A program made the translations under genes and the position numbers. The notes below the pieces were generated by a model, which saw only the letters and a list, made by a program, of their open reading frames with translations, did not search any database and was not told where the DNA came from. 17,746 bases of DNA from an uncultured Catenibacterium sp. (lineage in GTDB: Bacteria > Bacillota_I > Bacilli_A > Erysipelotrichales > Coprobacillaceae): assembly GCA_900764725.1 (NCBI GenBank), contig CAAFPB010000537.1, positions 1 to 17,746 of the forward strand, in the 5' to 3' direction. Each line of letters begins with the position of its first letter. The first letter of the stretch is position 1. Below are positions 5,378 through 16,380 of the stretch, piece after piece.

Positions 5378-5986
5378 ATGATAATAGACTTAAACCAAAT
5401 CCTATCCACTTTTAATATAGATTATGAAATCGCAAAAGGAAACAATAAACTTGGTGGAGCATCTCTACCTAAACAATTTAATCAGGGAGGAGAAATAGAA
5501 GCTAACTTTCTCTCACGTAAATTTAAACTGATCTATGATCCAGACAAAATAAAACCTGAATGGGATAAAGTAGGACATAAGAAATATGGAATGTTATTTG
5601 AAGAAGAAAGCCTAGGTGTAATCTATCAGAAATCAGGCTTTACATCTCACTCAGGTTATTTTGTATTAAAGTATGATGGTGTAAAATACAAGATGTATAG
5701 AGTAGGATTAGAAACAGGTTATGTATATCCTATCTATGAAGGTTCTAAACTAGTTGCCTGCATTATGGCAGATAAATCTATCTTCAATGATTTAAACCTC
5801 TATCATATTTATGCATTAAGTAAGTCATACAGCTATATTGCTTCAGTCTTTGGCTTATATCTAGATGCCTGCATCCAGTTAAAGTATGGCCCTCTAGTAA
5901 CTACACCACACTTTATTGCTGGAAAGAGTTTAAAAAAGAAATATGATCCTGACTTTATTGAAAAAATAAAGGAAATGGAGAAATAA
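5378..5986 (+). CDS. Hypothetical protein, 202 aa
   Basis: I do not recognise this family with confidence. It is a soluble protein with no signal peptide or membrane helix. The middle is rich in aromatic beta-strand-like segments (YFVLKYDGVKYKMYRVGLE and YPIYEGSKLVACI, about 109-152), followed by a more helical Tyr-rich part and a basic C-terminus. The alternation of short strands with Y-x-I/V-Y and a 'G-x-x-V/I-A-x-I' turn is loosely reminiscent of tubby/LURP-one-like beta barrels, but this is only a resemblance. ATG 5378 follows AAAGGAG and an extended -10 promoter, so it is its own transcription unit. Its only nearby downstream terminator is at about 6073-6106, so the G-loop hairpins at 6025-6106 may be its 3' UTR. 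Confidence 0.75.
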   Translation: MIIDLNQILSTFNIDYEIAKGNNKLGGASLPKQFNQGGEIEANFLSRKFKLIYDPDKIKPEWDKVGHKKYGMLFEEESLGVIYQKSGFTSHSGYFVLKYDGVKYKMYRVGLETGYVYPIYEGSKLVACIMADKSIFNDLNLYHIYALSKSYSYIASVFGLYLDACIQLKYGPLVTTPHFIAGKSLKKKYDPDFIEKIKEMEK

Positions 5987-6001: not shown

Positions 6002-6106
6002 TTGTTGTTATAGAAAAAGTATGCTAATATGACTTTGGGAGTCGTATTACGATTAGAATAGCTCTTGGAAAGGTCTGAAATAGGGAGTCAGATCTTTTTT
6101 TTATTT
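6002..6106 (+). ncRNA. Possible short RNA or 3' UTR with two GGGAGU hairpins
   Basis: TTGTTG (6002-6007), 17 nt and extended TGCTAATAT (6022-6030) make a plausible promoter. Hairpin 1 is TAATATGACT/AGTCGTATTA (6025-6034, 6040-6049) with loop TTGGG. Hairpin 2 is AGGTCTGA/TCAGATCT with loop AATAGGGAG (about 6071-6095), followed by eight T and hence an intrinsic terminator. Both loops run into the stem as GGGAGUC. Two readings remain: the 3' UTR of the 202-aa gene, or a separate RNA of about 70 nt. Hairpin 1 overlaps the -10, so it would be RNA only in the first case and a DNA operator in the second. No coding frame with a ribosome site is seen. Confidence 0.45.
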
Positions 6107-6107
6107 T

Positions 6108-6140
6108 GTTCATACTTAGTTCATATACTAAGATTATAGT
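6108..6140 (+). promoter_or_regulatory. Activator-type promoter of small RNA A
   Basis: Direct repeats GTTCATA (6108-6114) and GTTCATA (6119-6125) are 11 bp apart, one helical turn. They sit where a -35 should be, and 9 nt later comes TATAGT (6135-6140). No consensus -35 exists. Direct repeats on one face of the helix next to a -10 are typical of OmpR/PhoB-type response regulators. The same box at the same distance occurs at 16348-16380 on the minus strand. Confidence 0.55.
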
Positions 6141-6146
6141 AATAAC

Positions 6147-6266
6147 TGTAAAGAGGGCCACTCCCTAATAATAAAAGCGTCCTGTTTACGATTCATAAAT
6201 AAAAACTCCCTTCTAATTGTATTAAAATGTTTTTTAGAACCACTGGCTCTCCTCCAGTGGTTTTTA
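6147..6266 (+). ncRNA. Candidate small RNA A with anti-Shine-Dalgarno motifs
   Basis: A predicted RNA of about 120 nt. It begins near CTGTAAAGAG (6146-6155), carries ACUCCCU at 6160-6166 and ACUCCCUUC at 6205-6213 in A/U-rich, probably unpaired sequence, and ends in an intrinsic terminator: stem AACCACTGG/CCAGTGGTT (6238-6246, 6254-6262), loop CUCUCCU, then a U-tract. ACUCCC and the loop sequence CUCCUCC are complementary to Shine-Dalgarno sequences. A homologous element with the same order of motifs is found at 16205-16380 on the minus strand. No start codon with a ribosome site is present, so it is not a small gene. The presence of an RNA is inferred from promoter, terminator and paralogy. 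Confidence 0.6.
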
Positions 6267-6468: not shown

Positions 6469-6475
6469 ATATATG

Positions 6476-6663
6476 ACAACGATAAGTGAGGTTACTTCAG
6501 GGATACGGACTGCTGCCGCAAAATGATGGAGACATCATTCGCTGGTTTGAACAGTCTATGTCGTTAAGGCATAGACTAATGTAGTTACATTGCCCTTTAG
6601 AACTAAAGCCCAAACGGAACATAAGACACATGACCATATATCCGATTGGGTATATGGTTTTTT
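6476..6663 (+). promoter_or_regulatory. M-box (ykoK-type) Mg2+ riboswitch with terminator
   Basis: The leader of mgtA carries the M-box hallmarks in order: AAGTGAGG (about 6483-6490), GGGATACG, CTGCTGCCGCAAAATG (about 6511-6526), a helix of TAGTCTATG type with GTTAAGG, a TAATG segment, and AAAGCCCAAACGGA near 6605-6618. An intrinsic terminator follows: ACCATATA/TATATGGT (6633-6640, 6651-6658) with a U-tract to 6663, 22 nt before the start codon. In the known family, Mg2+ compacts the aptamer and favours the terminator; low Mg2+ permits read-through. The downstream Mg2+ transporter fits exactly. I did not trace the antiterminator pairing. Confidence 0.9.
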
Positions 6664-6684: not shown

Positions 6685-9339
6685 ATGAAGAACATCAAAG
6701 AAAGACTTATTTATGTAAGCCAGTCAGATTTAGACACAGTATTACATACATTTAACTCTACTTATGAAGGCCTCACTTACAAACAGGTAGAAGAATCATT
6801 AGACAAGTATGGTAAAAACATCGTTACAACAGATCGTCATAATACCTTACTTAAGAAGCTCTATGGTGCTTTTATCAACCCGTTTACTCTTGTCTTAATC
6901 ATACTTGCAATCGTTTCTGCATTTACTGATATTATTTATGCACCAGTAGGTGAAAAGAATCCTATTACAGTGATTATTATTACTGTTATGGTGCTTATTT
7001 CTGGATTCTTACGCTTTATACAAGAAGCAAGAAGTGAACGTGCTTCAGAAAAACTCAATGAGATGATTGAAACAACAAGCTGTATTAAGCGTTATAACGA
7101 ATCTAAGAAGGAAATTCCTGTAGATGAGATTGTCGTAGGGGATATTGTTTATCTTTCTGCAGGTGATCTGATTCCAGCTGATATTAGACTGCTGAATACG
7201 AAAGATTTATTTATCAATCAATCTGCACTCACAGGTGAAAGTGAACCAGTAGAAAAGACTACAGATGCATTGATTGTGAGTAAACCAATAGAGAGTACTA
7301 ATCTAGCCTTTATGGGCAGTACAGTAGTAAGTGGCAGTGGTAAAGCTATAGTTATAGCTGTAGGGGATGACACATTATTAGGTGAAACTGCTCAGACACT
7401 TAACGCAGATCCTACACCTACTACATTTGAAAAAGGTGTAAATTCAGTTTCATGGGTATTGATTCGTTTTATGCTTGTGATGGTACCTATTGTATTATTC
7501 ATTAATGGATTTACTAAAGGAAACTGGTTAGAAGCTGTATTATTTGCTATTAGTGTGGCAGTAGGTCTTACACCTGAAATGCTGCCAATGATTGTCACAA
7601 CATGTCTTGCGAGAGGTGCTGTGAATATGAGTAAGAAGAAAGTTATTATTAAGAAGTTGAACTCTATCCAGAATCTTGGTTCTATTGATATTCTCTGTAC
7701 GGATAAAACAGGTACTTTGACACAAAACAAAGTTGTATTAGAAAAGCATTTGGATCTTATGGGCAATGAAGATGAACGTGTATTACGTCATGCTTTCTTA
7801 AATAGTCATTATCAGACAGGCTTAAAGAACCTTATGGATATTGCGATTATTGAAAAGACAGAATATCTTCAGGAACACTCAGATAAACTAAGAGGATTAG
7901 ATGAAATATATACAAAGATTGATGAAATCCCATTTGAATTTGAACGTAGAAGAATGAGTGTTGTAGTACAGGATCATAATGGTAAAACAGAAATGATCAC
8001 AAAAGGGGCTGTTGAAGAAATGTTGTCTATTTCTGCTTTTGTAGATTACAACAATCAAGTTATTCCTTTAAGTGATGAGATGCGTTCTATTGTGACAGAA
8101 AAAGTTAATAAGCTGAATAATGAAGGTATGAGAGTATTAGGAGTAGCGCATAAGACAAATCCTAGACCAGTAGGGCAATTCTCAGTACAGGATGAAAAGG
8201 ACATGGTTTTGATTGGTTATCTTGCATTCTTAGATCCACCAAAAGAAACAACTCAATCTGCTATCCAAGCCCTTCATGAAAATGGTGTAGATGTTAAAGT
8301 ATTGACTGGAGATAATGAAAAAGTCACATCAAGCATCTGCAGACAAATTGGTTTACCTATGAATGATATTATTCTAGGAACTGACTTAGATGATATGAGT
8401 GATGAAGAATTAAGAAGACGTGCTGAAAATACAACAATATTTGCTAAACTCTCTCCTGCAGAAAAAGCAAGAGTTGTCACTGCACTTCGTGATAATGGAC
8501 ATACAGTAGGTTATATGGGTGATGGTATCAATGATGCCCCTGCTATGAAAGTCAGTGATGTAGGTATTAGTGTGGATTCAGCTGTTGATATTGCGAAAGA
8601 AAGTGCAGATGTTATTTTATTAGAAAAAGATTTGACAGTACTACGTGATGGTATTATTGAAGGTAGAAAGACTTATGCGAATATGATCAAGTATATCAAG
8701 ATGACAGCCTCATCTAACTTCGGTAATATGTTTTCAGTACTTGCTGCCAGTGCATTCCTACCATTCCTTCCAATGGAATCTATTCACCTTATTCTCTTGA
8801 ATCTTATCTATGATATCTCATGTATCACAATCCCTTGGGATAATGTAGATGAGGAATTCTTAAAAGAACCACGTAAGTGGGATGCCTCAAGTATTGGTAA
8901 GTTCATGCTCTGGATTGGACCAACAAGTTCTATCTTTGATATTGTGACTTATTCACTTATGTATTTCACAATCTGTCCACGTATCTGTGGAGGACCTTAT
9001 AAAACATTAGATCCTGCCACACAGATGGTCTTTATGGCACTCTTCCAGACAGGATGGTTTGTAGAATCAATGTGGAGCCAGACACTTGTTATTCACATGA
9101 TCAGAACGCCTAAGATTCCATTTGTACAAAGTAAAGCATCCATCCCAGTCACTTCACTCACATTCATGGGAAGTATCGTATTAACACTTATTCCTTTCAC
9201 ACCACTAGGCAGAGATATTGGACTCACATCTTTACCTACAATTTATTTCTTCTATCTTGTGCTTATTGTACTCGCTTATATGTGTTTAGTGACTATTGTG
9301 AAGAATATCTATATTAAACATAACGGTGAATTACTTTGA
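6685..9339 (+). CDS. mgtA: Mg2+-importing P-type ATPase MgtA
   Basis: 884 aa, full length for the P3B Mg2+ transport ATPases of the cytoplasmic membrane. An N-terminal cation-ATPase domain (about 10-75) precedes the first membrane pair. The actuator domain holds [12 protein letters not shown] (about 190-201). The membrane segment [19 protein letters not shown] leads to the phosphorylation site [10 protein letters not shown] with Asp340. The nucleotide domain has [10 protein letters not shown], the hinge has LTGDNEKV, and the P-domain has [12 protein letters not shown]. The C-terminal membrane part with [14 protein letters not shown] and four or more hydrophobic helices is typical of MgtA/MgtB. 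AAAGGAGG lies just upstream of ATG 6685. The M-box leader gives control by intracellular Mg2+. I see no clear terminator after the stop, so some read-through into the toxin-antitoxin unit is possible. Confidence 0.97.
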
Positions 9340-9400: not shown

Positions 9401-9423
9401 ATAAGAAATAAGGAGGTGTGATT

Positions 9424-9726
9424 ATGGGAAAATCAGCAACATTAAACTTAAGAGTAAACCCAGCCGTCAAAGAGAGGGCAGAAGAAGTATTGTCTCAGTT
9501 AGGTGTTCCTATGTCAACAGCGATTGATATGTATTTGAATCAAATTTCTCTTACAGGTGGAATTCCATTTTCTGTTTCTTTACCAAAAGCACCAGTATCG
9601 ATTCATGCAGATGGCATGACAACAGAAGAAATTCATCAGAAATTGGAAAAAGGTTACAATGATATAGCTGCAGGAAGAGTGCAAAATGCAACTGAAGCGT
9701 TCGCAAAATTCAGGGATAATCATTGA
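9424..9726 (+). CDS. RelB/DinJ-family antitoxin
   Basis: 100 aa. The N-terminus (ATLNLRVNPAVKERAEEVLSQLG) is a ribbon-helix-helix DNA-binding domain, with the strand T-L-N-L-R-V making the dimer sheet, followed by the DinJ-type helix S-T-A-I-D-M-Y-L-N-Q-I and the conserved G-G-I-P-F. The C-terminal half (about 55-100) is the segment that wraps the toxin. ATG 9424 is chosen because AGGAGG (9411-9416) is 7 nt upstream; the in-frame GTG at 9418 is too close to it. The toxin start follows the stop after one nucleotide, so the pair is translationally coupled. The upstream inverted repeat is its probable own operator. Confidence 0.92.
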   Translation: MGKSATLNLRVNPAVKERAEEVLSQLGVPMSTAIDMYLNQISLTGGIPFSVSLPKAPVSIHADGMTTEEIHQKLEKGYNDIAAGRVQNATEAFAKFRDNH

Positions 9727-9727
9727 T

Positions 9728-10042
9728 ATGAAACACTATACGGTTGAGATTACAAATGAAGCATTGGCTGATATGGAGCAGTTGTATAATCATATCGCTT
9801 ATGTTCTTCAAGCGCCGGAAAATGCGATGGATCAATATAACCGGATTGCAGACGCTATTTTAACATTGGATACTATGGCTGAGAGAATCTGCATTATGGA
9901 ATCAGAGCCGGAACGAAGCAAAGAGATGAGAAGATTGTTGGTAGACAATTACTCTGTCTTTTTTGTGATCCAGGGAGATAATGTGATTGTAACAGATGTG
10001 TTATATTGTGCATCAGATATTGAAAGCCGATTAAAAGGTTAG
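9728..10042 (+). CDS. RelE/ParE-family toxin
   Basis: 104 aa, standard length for the family. It starts with the typical strand Y-T-V-E-I-T, then helices A-L-A-D-M-E-Q-L-Y-N-H-I and A-M-D-Q-Y-N-R-I-A-D-A-I, then the strands R-R-L-L-V-D-N-Y-S-V-F-F-V-I and V-I-V-T-D-V-L-Y-C-A-S-D with the C-terminal R-L. Whether it cuts mRNA on the ribosome (RelE type) or poisons gyrase (ParE type) cannot be settled: the D-N-Y-x-V-F-F core is common to both. I start at ATG 9728, right after the antitoxin stop, not at the GTG inside the antitoxin gene. Codons such as CGG, CCG, GCC and GAG are commoner here than in neighbouring genes, which suggests acquisition by transfer. Confidence 0.92.
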   Translation: MKHYTVEITNEALADMEQLYNHIAYVLQAPENAMDQYNRIADAILTLDTMAERICIMESEPERSKEMRRLLVDNYSVFFVIQGDNVIVTDVLYCASDIESRLKG

Positions 10043-15789: not shown

Positions 15790-16206
15790 ATGAATTATAC
15801 TTTAGAAGATATCAAAAAACAGAGTCCTTATCCTATTGGTGAATTAAATACTGCATATGCTAAGTATTTTGTAGGTAATAGTTACCTCTATCCTATTAAT
15901 AATCAAGAAGTACATATTTCTAATGTCACATTTGAACCAGGATGTAGAAATAACTGGCATATTCATCATGGTGCAGGACAGATTCTATTATGTACGGCTG
16001 GAAGAGGATATTATCAGGAATGGGGAAAGCCTGCTCAGGAACTTAATGTAGGTGATACAGTCTATATTGCGCCAGAAATCAAACATTGGCATGGTGCTGC
16101 ACCAGAAAGTTATTTTGTCCATATCGCGGAAAGTGTACCAAATAAAAATGCTTCAAGCGAATGGCTTGAAGCAGTGAATGAAGAAGAATATCTAAAACTT
16201 AAATAA
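15790..16206 (+). CDS. Cupin-domain protein
   Basis: 138 aa small one-domain cupin. Motif 1 is W-H-I-H-H-G-A-G-Q-I-L-L-C-T-A-G-R-G, giving two or three metal-binding His and the Gln in place of the usual Glu. Motif 2 is G-D-T-V-Y-I-A-P-E-I-K-H-W-H-G-A, giving the last His. Small cupins with this W-H-x-H-H pattern often bind a metal and act on quinone or lactone-type compounds, but no reaction can be read from sequence. ATG 15790 follows GGAGG (15776-15780), which lies within the end of the preceding gene, so translation of the two is coupled. The pair is under the divergent LysR regulator. Confidence 0.9.
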   Translation: MNYTLEDIKKQSPYPIGELNTAYAKYFVGNSYLYPINNQEVHISNVTFEPGCRNNWHIHHGAGQILLCTAGRGYYQEWGKPAQELNVGDTVYIAPEIKHWHGAAPESYFVHIAESVPNKNASSEWLEAVNEEEYLKLK

Positions 16207-16341
16207 AACAAAACGATCAGGAAGGGATACCTGATCGCTTTTTATTTCAAGAGTTATTTTGAAGGGAGTTTGGGAAATTTTAGGGATCACTCTTGGTAAA
16301 AAGAAGCTTTAATTATTATAGGGAGTTGCTTTCTCTTTACA
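16205..16341 (-). ncRNA. Candidate small RNA B, paralogue of small RNA A
   Basis: A minus-strand RNA of about 135 nt. It begins near CTGTAAAGAG (16342-16333) and carries ACUCCCU (16326-16320), AUCCCUA (16087-based equivalent at 16287-16281) and ACUCCCUUC (16269-16261). It ends at the terminator 16237-16214, whose loop reads UAUCCCUU. Motif order, promoter spacing and sequence blocks match small RNA A, with a 12-nt longer middle and a different terminator stem. It is convergent with the cupin gene and divergent from the flavodoxin gene. No ribosome site plus start codon is seen inside. Confidence 0.6.
16214..16243. terminator. Bidirectional terminator (cupin operon and small RNA B)
   Basis: A perfect stem CGATCAGG/CCTGATCG with an 8-nt loop. 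On the plus strand CTTTTTATTT follows; on the minus strand TTTTGTTTTATTT follows, so it also ends candidate small RNA B. Confidence 0.85.
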
Positions 16342-16347
16342 GGTACT

Positions 16348-16380
16348 ATTATGCTTATTATCTATGAACACATTGTGAAC
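16348..16380 (-). promoter_or_regulatory. Activator-type promoter of small RNA B
   Basis: On the minus strand GTTCACA (16380-16374) and GTTCATA (16369-16363) repeat at 11 bp. CATAAT (16353-16348) follows after exactly 9 nt, the same geometry as at 6108-6140. The box is 28 nt from the flavodoxin -10 on the other strand and could act on both. Confidence 0.55.

Follow-up and report, generated by a model that had tools for sequence, protein, structure and literature searches.

The window analysed here, a 17,746-nt stretch of DNA from an uncultured Catenibacterium sp., contains two similar intergenic elements on opposite strands, at 6108–6266 (+; copy A) and 16205–16380 (−; copy B), raising the question of whether these are genes for regulatory RNAs and, if so, what controls them. 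The sequence-only reading had taken the two for homologues, and their local alignment bears this out with a score of 71, whereas 2000 dinucleotide shuffles of B aligned to A gave a mean of 20 and a maximum of 40, none reaching 71. The geometry is identical in A and B as described there: the repeats of a box, a gap of 9 nt to the −10 element and 27 nt between the beginning of the second repeat and CTGTAAAGAG. The motifs ACTCCCTA and AACTCCCTTC and C-rich terminator loops likewise recur in both copies. We consider it probable, at roughly three chances in four, that the two copies are genes belonging to a multicopy regulon resembling that of the streptococcal csRNAs, in which an OmpR-type regulator of envelope stress would drive RNAs that block the translation of their targets.

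In copy A the putative regulator box, the direct repeat GTTCATA-N4-GTTCATA (6108–6125, +), is followed after 9 nt by the −10 sequence TATAGT (6135–6140, +), from which we place the start of a predicted sRNA of about 122 nt with three hairpins (6145–6266, +; fold z −3.2, with 1 of 200 shuffles as good). The loop of its 5′ hairpin (6147–6190, +) holds ACUCCCUA (6160–6167), the stretch AACUCCCUUC (6204–6213, +) is predicted to be unpaired and is preceded by CAU, a possible anti-start codon, and the intrinsic terminator (6236–6264, +) has the C-rich loop CUCUCCUCC at 6247–6255. Copy B has the box GTTCACA-N4-GTTCATA (16363–16380, −) and, 9 nt from it, the −10 sequence CATAAT (16348–16353, −), again used to place the start of a predicted three-hairpin sRNA, here of about 130 nt (16213–16342, −; fold z −6.8, with 0 of 200 shuffles as good). 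Its 5′ hairpin (16296–16340, −) carries ACUCCCUA in the loop, AACUCCCUUC (16261–16270, −) lies in the loop of the middle hairpin, and the terminator hairpin (16213–16238, −) has the loop UAUCCCUUCC. In both copies CTGTAAAGAG forms the 5′ side of the predicted first hairpin, and folding combined with alignment indicates that the upper stem of this hairpin differs in sequence between A and B with its pairing retained. Three CU-rich sites, in the 5′ loop, the middle stretch and the terminator loop, are present in each RNA. A and B are the only exact box-plus-−10 sites in the window, which at up to three mismatches holds 5 sites against 3.5 expected.

The protein encoded beside copy A (5378–5986) is 85% identical to proteins of Catenibacterium mitsuokai and Catenibacterium sp. 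AM22-15 and 92–93% identical to others. Among 196 genomes of the order, the pattern CTGTAAAGAGN{2,9}ACTCCCT matched in a single one, that of a Catenibacterium relative (G034), three times within 7 kb. Here copy A is near-identical and again followed by a tRNA, and copy B lies next to the same neighbour genes as in the window, in two tandem copies accompanied by fragments of the adjoining genes. Upstream of the syntenic region G034 has a CRISPR-like array (L114, 48–1196) with a 36-nt repeat and a 66-nt period. The window itself also contains an M-box magnesium riboswitch (6471–6626, +; Rfam, 83.8 bits) upstream of a P-type cation ATPase gene (6685–9339), whose nearest relatives among the genomes compared are from Clostridia, at no more than 69% identity, and two small overlapping genes (9418–10042, +), of which the first matches RelB antitoxins and the second may encode its toxin partner.

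If the box and the −10 element define a regulon, they should lead to further RNAs of this kind; the sequence-only reading had proposed a search for copies with the same box-to-−10 geometry. We queried G034 with TTCAYA-N5-TTCAYA-N10-ATANT, a pattern that includes none of the sRNA sequence. Of the five exact sites, three belong to A and the tandem pair of B, and the other two (L087 and L088) are additional intergenic loci; allowing one mismatch added four, giving 9 sites against 1 in the control. One of the four (L089) runs into a C-rich terminated RNA, one (L090) is upstream of a flavodoxin-like open reading frame and two (L091, L092) are inside open reading frames. The search thus yielded three more intergenic C-rich RNAs in this genome, one of them with a single mismatch. 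Two mismatches brought in largely noise, with a total of 65 sites against 44 in the control, and this level was left out of the results.

Across the family, the exact repeat TTCAYA-N5-TTCAYA with a −10 (TATAAT) at 9–11 nt has 112 sites, which fall in 34 of 43 genomes, compared with 9 sites for the reversed pattern. We read the records of 111 of the 112, leaving out one (contig C66 of G085) because it looked coding. With repeats removed and the window's two loci included, a script sorted 111 records into 42 sRNA loci, in which the box precedes an intergenic terminated RNA and the terminator is a selection criterion, 56 gene loci and 13 others. The spacing from box to −10 is 9 nt at 40 of the 42 sRNA sites. 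Correction by hand added three loci whose orthologues are sRNAs (L168, L197 and L204), dropped two as doubtful (L202 and L210) and re-set one terminator (L151), giving 43 RNAs of 73–139 nt: the window's two and 41 from 29 of the 43 family genomes. A further likely sRNA (L183, at the end of contig C146 of G081) is truncated after the box and RNA start by what we take to be sequencing-adapter sequence. The three further RNAs in G034, the occurrence of such RNAs in 29 of the 43 family genomes and the response-regulator, protein-quality and envelope genes that share the box (below) strongly support the earlier suggestion of an undescribed regulon of translation-repressing RNAs. An alternative is that the window's two loci derive from a mobile or decayed repeat, or are attenuator leaders, and regulate nothing; origin from a decayed mobile repeat had been named in the sequence-only reading as grounds for refuting the regulon. 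Local duplication does happen, as the tandem copies of B with their gene fragments in G034 show. The family loci, however, were recovered by the box and −10 alone and share their box, spacing, C-rich loops and terminator, a common layout of promoter and motifs without common overall sequence, and since A ends in a terminator of its own, with a tRNA beyond it, it does not lead into a protein gene. We regard this possibility as very improbable.

YCCC occurs in all 43 of the corrected set (40 of 42 transcripts as cut by the script), in total 108 times against 52.9 (s.d. 6.0) in shuffles. Its predicted probability of being unpaired averages 0.96, with 107 of the 108 above 0.5, compared with 0.76 for YCCC in shuffled RNAs. 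Counted over the same 90-nt stretch, there are 92 YCCC in the 42 raw sRNA loci and 3 in 53 gene-class loci. Selection on the promoter and on the C-rich motifs had been proposed from A and B; its C-rich part could not be demonstrated from two copies and is now backed by the wider family. CAU followed by YCCC is found in 24 of the 43 RNAs against 4.3 (s.d. 1.7) in shuffles, and in A and not in B; as partial controls, the opposite order, YCCC and then CAU, is seen in 10 of 43 and YCCC ahead of ATG in 19 of 43. We count these controls, and the lack of the combination in B, against our explanation, along with weak covariation: among nine orthologous RNAs of one group, 10 of 21 pairs show two-sided change and several are broken, and the covariation term is only −0.69, most of the signal lying in the terminator and little elsewhere. 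The fold energy is below that of shuffles in all 43 RNAs (mean z −4.9), a result that is not independent since the terminator served to select them. Neither A, B nor any of 20 related loci matched an Rfam family.

What would such motifs pair with? Target prediction by pairing of the Shine-Dalgarno complement, as the sequence-only reading had suggested, did not succeed in Catenibacterium, where it gave 21 sites against 11 in the control in G034 and 16 against 12 in a second genome (G053), near background; one match in each genome is the antisense of an sRNA itself, and no target was picked out in either. This too we set against the proposed mechanism. Elsewhere in the family, the ribosome site of a box-driven polysaccharide deacetylase gene pairs with the sRNA of the same genome at −29.8 (G024), −28.7 (G014) and −22.2 kcal/mol (G049), ranking first among 21, 15 and 15 sites, respectively, all taken from fetched loci, with a lead in G049 of 0.1 kcal/mol. 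These pairings speak against a different function for the C-rich loops, in which they would bind a protein and not mRNAs, the RNAs acting as protein decoys. The repetition of identical CU motifs in three loops would also suit a protein-binding RNA, and for the Listeria RNA LhrC protein binding was raised by its authors (PMC4132741). The order CAU-then-CUCCC, however, is the reverse image of a Shine-Dalgarno sequence and AUG, and a protein would have no need of it in its binding site; we consider the decoy function improbable.

A possible partner RNA lies just upstream of A (6031–6099, +). This segment has two GGGAGUC motifs, an extended −10-like start (by eye) and a hairpin with a U-run that is absent from the list of the terminator scan, and G034 has a nearly identical copy. 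Pairing of the segment with B is stronger than for 495 of 500 shuffled versions and for all 483 window segments, and its pairing with A, equalled by 223 of 500 shuffles, does not stand out; net co-folding of the segment is reached by 9 of 200 shuffles with B and 13 of 200 with A. GGGAG within 150 nt upstream is a feature of just two of the 42 raw sRNA loci, copy A in the window and copy A in G034. The complementarity of GGGAGUC to the C-rich loops hints that the segment could encode a sponge for the sRNAs.

The genes that share the box give some indication of its signal. In the family, gene-class sites precede groES (12 loci), YugP-like zinc peptidases (6), a response regulator that we call X (6), RodZ-like HTH proteins (4), P-type ATPases (4), polysaccharide deacetylases (3) and DUF6465 proteins (2), with one member of each gene family scanned against Pfam. 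The YugP-type peptidases were counted by eye (L134, L138, L185, L186, L187 and L231), L185 being the one scanned. The groES leaders under the box carry a CIRCE-like repeat in addition. In five genomes (L157, L163, L167, L170 and L150) the box precedes a protein family starting ...DSKLRHIV..P.CIY(D/E)VSGI, whose sole scanned member (L157) had no Pfam match and weak NCBIfam matches only. In the order outside the family the site is present in 88 of 272 genomes. Twenty of these sites, chosen by hand, comprised five before Trypsin_2 (HtrA-like) proteases, four before a response regulator, here called Z, one before a PBP and one before CotH; one more (L311) resembles a C-rich terminated RNA, and the rest are before other genes or unclear. 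From these genes, and by comparison with CiaRH and LisRK, we infer that the signal of the regulon is envelope stress. The box resembles Pho boxes, and the Pho regulon was considered and rejected: no box accompanies the PhoB-like regulator behind pstB-phoU, and the open reading frames identified at the box sites read included none recognised as pst or pho.

Outside the order we found 18 sites in 18 genomes against 3 in the control, at a density of about 0.26 per Mb compared with about 1.0 per Mb in the family (hand sums of genome sizes). The box is therefore enriched in the family and not confined to it, and the excess outside the order is a further point against our explanation. In five Lachnospiraceae loci (L350, L351, L352, L354 and L358) the box and −10 are followed by a shared, conserved intergenic segment that contains a GCCCCGG...CCGGGGC hairpin as well as CUCCUCAUUUU and has no Rfam match.

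Which protein would bind the box? Among response regulators identified by phmmer, the leading candidate is X, an OmpR-type regulator that falls below every NCBIfam equivalog cut-off and whose kinase has HAMP, HisKA and HATPase domains after a long N-terminal region. Upstream DNA is available for 12 close orthologues of X, and in 11 of them, all but that of G064, the promoter carries the box at a constant register with no more than one mismatch. In genomes that have X, it is likely the box regulator. A competing view accepts the RNAs as real and controlled by the box and has another OmpR-type regulator bind it, be it Y1, a Z-like protein or one unlisted, with X merely a target. Close X (E 1e-50 or better) is absent from 13 of the 34 box-bearing genomes, and the OmpR-type regulators of G034, among them the X orthologue (54%; C1:2451341–2451991), all lack a box in the 300 nt upstream; both observations favour this view and count against our explanation as a whole. 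Outside the family, moreover, the box precedes Z at its promoter in four loci, and Z is about 43–46% identical to Y1 sequences; at E 1e-58, a strict cut-off, Z had no match in the 43 family genomes. Against this view, Y1, a universal OmpR-type regulator, also occurs in box-negative genomes and its own promoter lacks the box; it is apparently absent from one genome with box sites (G085), which may reflect incompleteness. In more distant regulators of the X group, furthermore, a related repeat stands at the same promoter position and changes along with the subgroup. Binding by a regulator other than X has, in our estimate, not far short of an even chance, and in Catenibacterium the regulator would be a protein of the OmpR type.

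Taken as a mechanism, an OmpR-family regulator, most likely of a two-component system for cell-envelope stress, would bind TTCAYA-N5-TTCAYA where a −35 element would otherwise stand, switching the promoter on rather than off. The resulting RNA of 120–130 nt would present an unpaired CU-rich motif in each of its 5′ hairpin, middle region and terminator hairpin. These motifs would pair with Shine-Dalgarno regions, and in many members the upstream CAU would pair with the start codon as well, so that pairing over the ribosome-binding site would block translation of the target mRNAs.

The likeness in design to streptococcal csRNAs and to UCCC-type RNAs, with a box and sequence of their own, was part of the sequence-only reading and agrees with what we find. 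The CiaR-controlled csRNAs of Streptococcus (PMC3091779, PMC8186281) have the box NTTAAG-N5-TTTAAG, 10 nt before the −10, and are intergenic terminated RNAs of 51–202 nt with an unpaired anti-Shine-Dalgarno sequence, usually with the anti-start codon CAU. Here, too, a hexamer direct repeat with N5 lies about 10 nt before the −10 of intergenic, terminated RNAs, several per genome and, at about 122 nt (A), about 130 nt (B) and 73–139 nt (the set of 43), within the same range of length. Unpaired anti-Shine-Dalgarno motifs, often with CAU as an anti-AUG, are shared as well, and the candidate regulators are of the OmpR type, as is CiaR; the recognition helix of X (IVDTYVKKLRKKL/I) has 7–8 of 13 residues in common with that of CiaR (VVEVYVSKVRKKL), a comparison that concerns this helix alone. 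Unlike in the csRNAs, the box is TTCAYA-N5-TTCAYA with 9 nt to the −10, which is not a CiaR box, and the RNAs occur in another bacterial order with no match to a sequence family.

The second comparison is with LhrC1-5 of Listeria monocytogenes, controlled by LisRK, which has three redundant CUCCC sites, one each in the loop of a 5′ hairpin, in the terminator loop and in a stretch between them, and binds a G-rich site before the lapB start codon (PMC4132741). A and B resemble it as multicopy RNAs with three CU-rich sites in the same layout and, on our reading, probably under an envelope-stress two-component system; they differ in having no Rfam match and in belonging to a family whose members vary in sequence and structure. 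RsaE, SprD, RNAIII and FsrA are named in the same paper as UCCC-motif sRNAs of staphylococci and bacilli (PMC4132741). With these the present RNAs share a C-rich motif able to pair with Shine-Dalgarno sequences. To our knowledge, the UCCC-motif sRNAs are not RNA families behind one direct-repeat regulator box. A surface-level search of the open-access literature found no reports of such RNAs in Catenibacterium or Erysipelotrichia.

More speculatively, and in our view with the odds leaning clearly against it, the RNAs could be an independent third lineage of two-component-controlled multicopy anti-Shine-Dalgarno sRNAs that spread across a gut family of the Erysipelotrichales from an older, order-wide box for HtrA and envelope stress. 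This scenario would include a loop in which an sRNA and the cell-wall deacetylase mRNA repressed by it are driven by one regulator, together with, for Catenibacterium, an adjoining GGGAGU-loop RNA that titrates the sRNAs. With the box, the list of loci and candidate regulators in hand, convergence and common descent can be tested against each other. The system of A and B appears to work like the CiaR csRNAs and LisRK-LhrC; we assign it to neither, and it is probably a separate and undescribed version. If so, the solution of the csRNAs and LhrC, in which one envelope-stress sensor governs several sRNAs with anti-Shine-Dalgarno loops, reaches well beyond streptococci and Listeria, and in common, little-studied gut bacteria it is built with another box and with no detected shared sequence.
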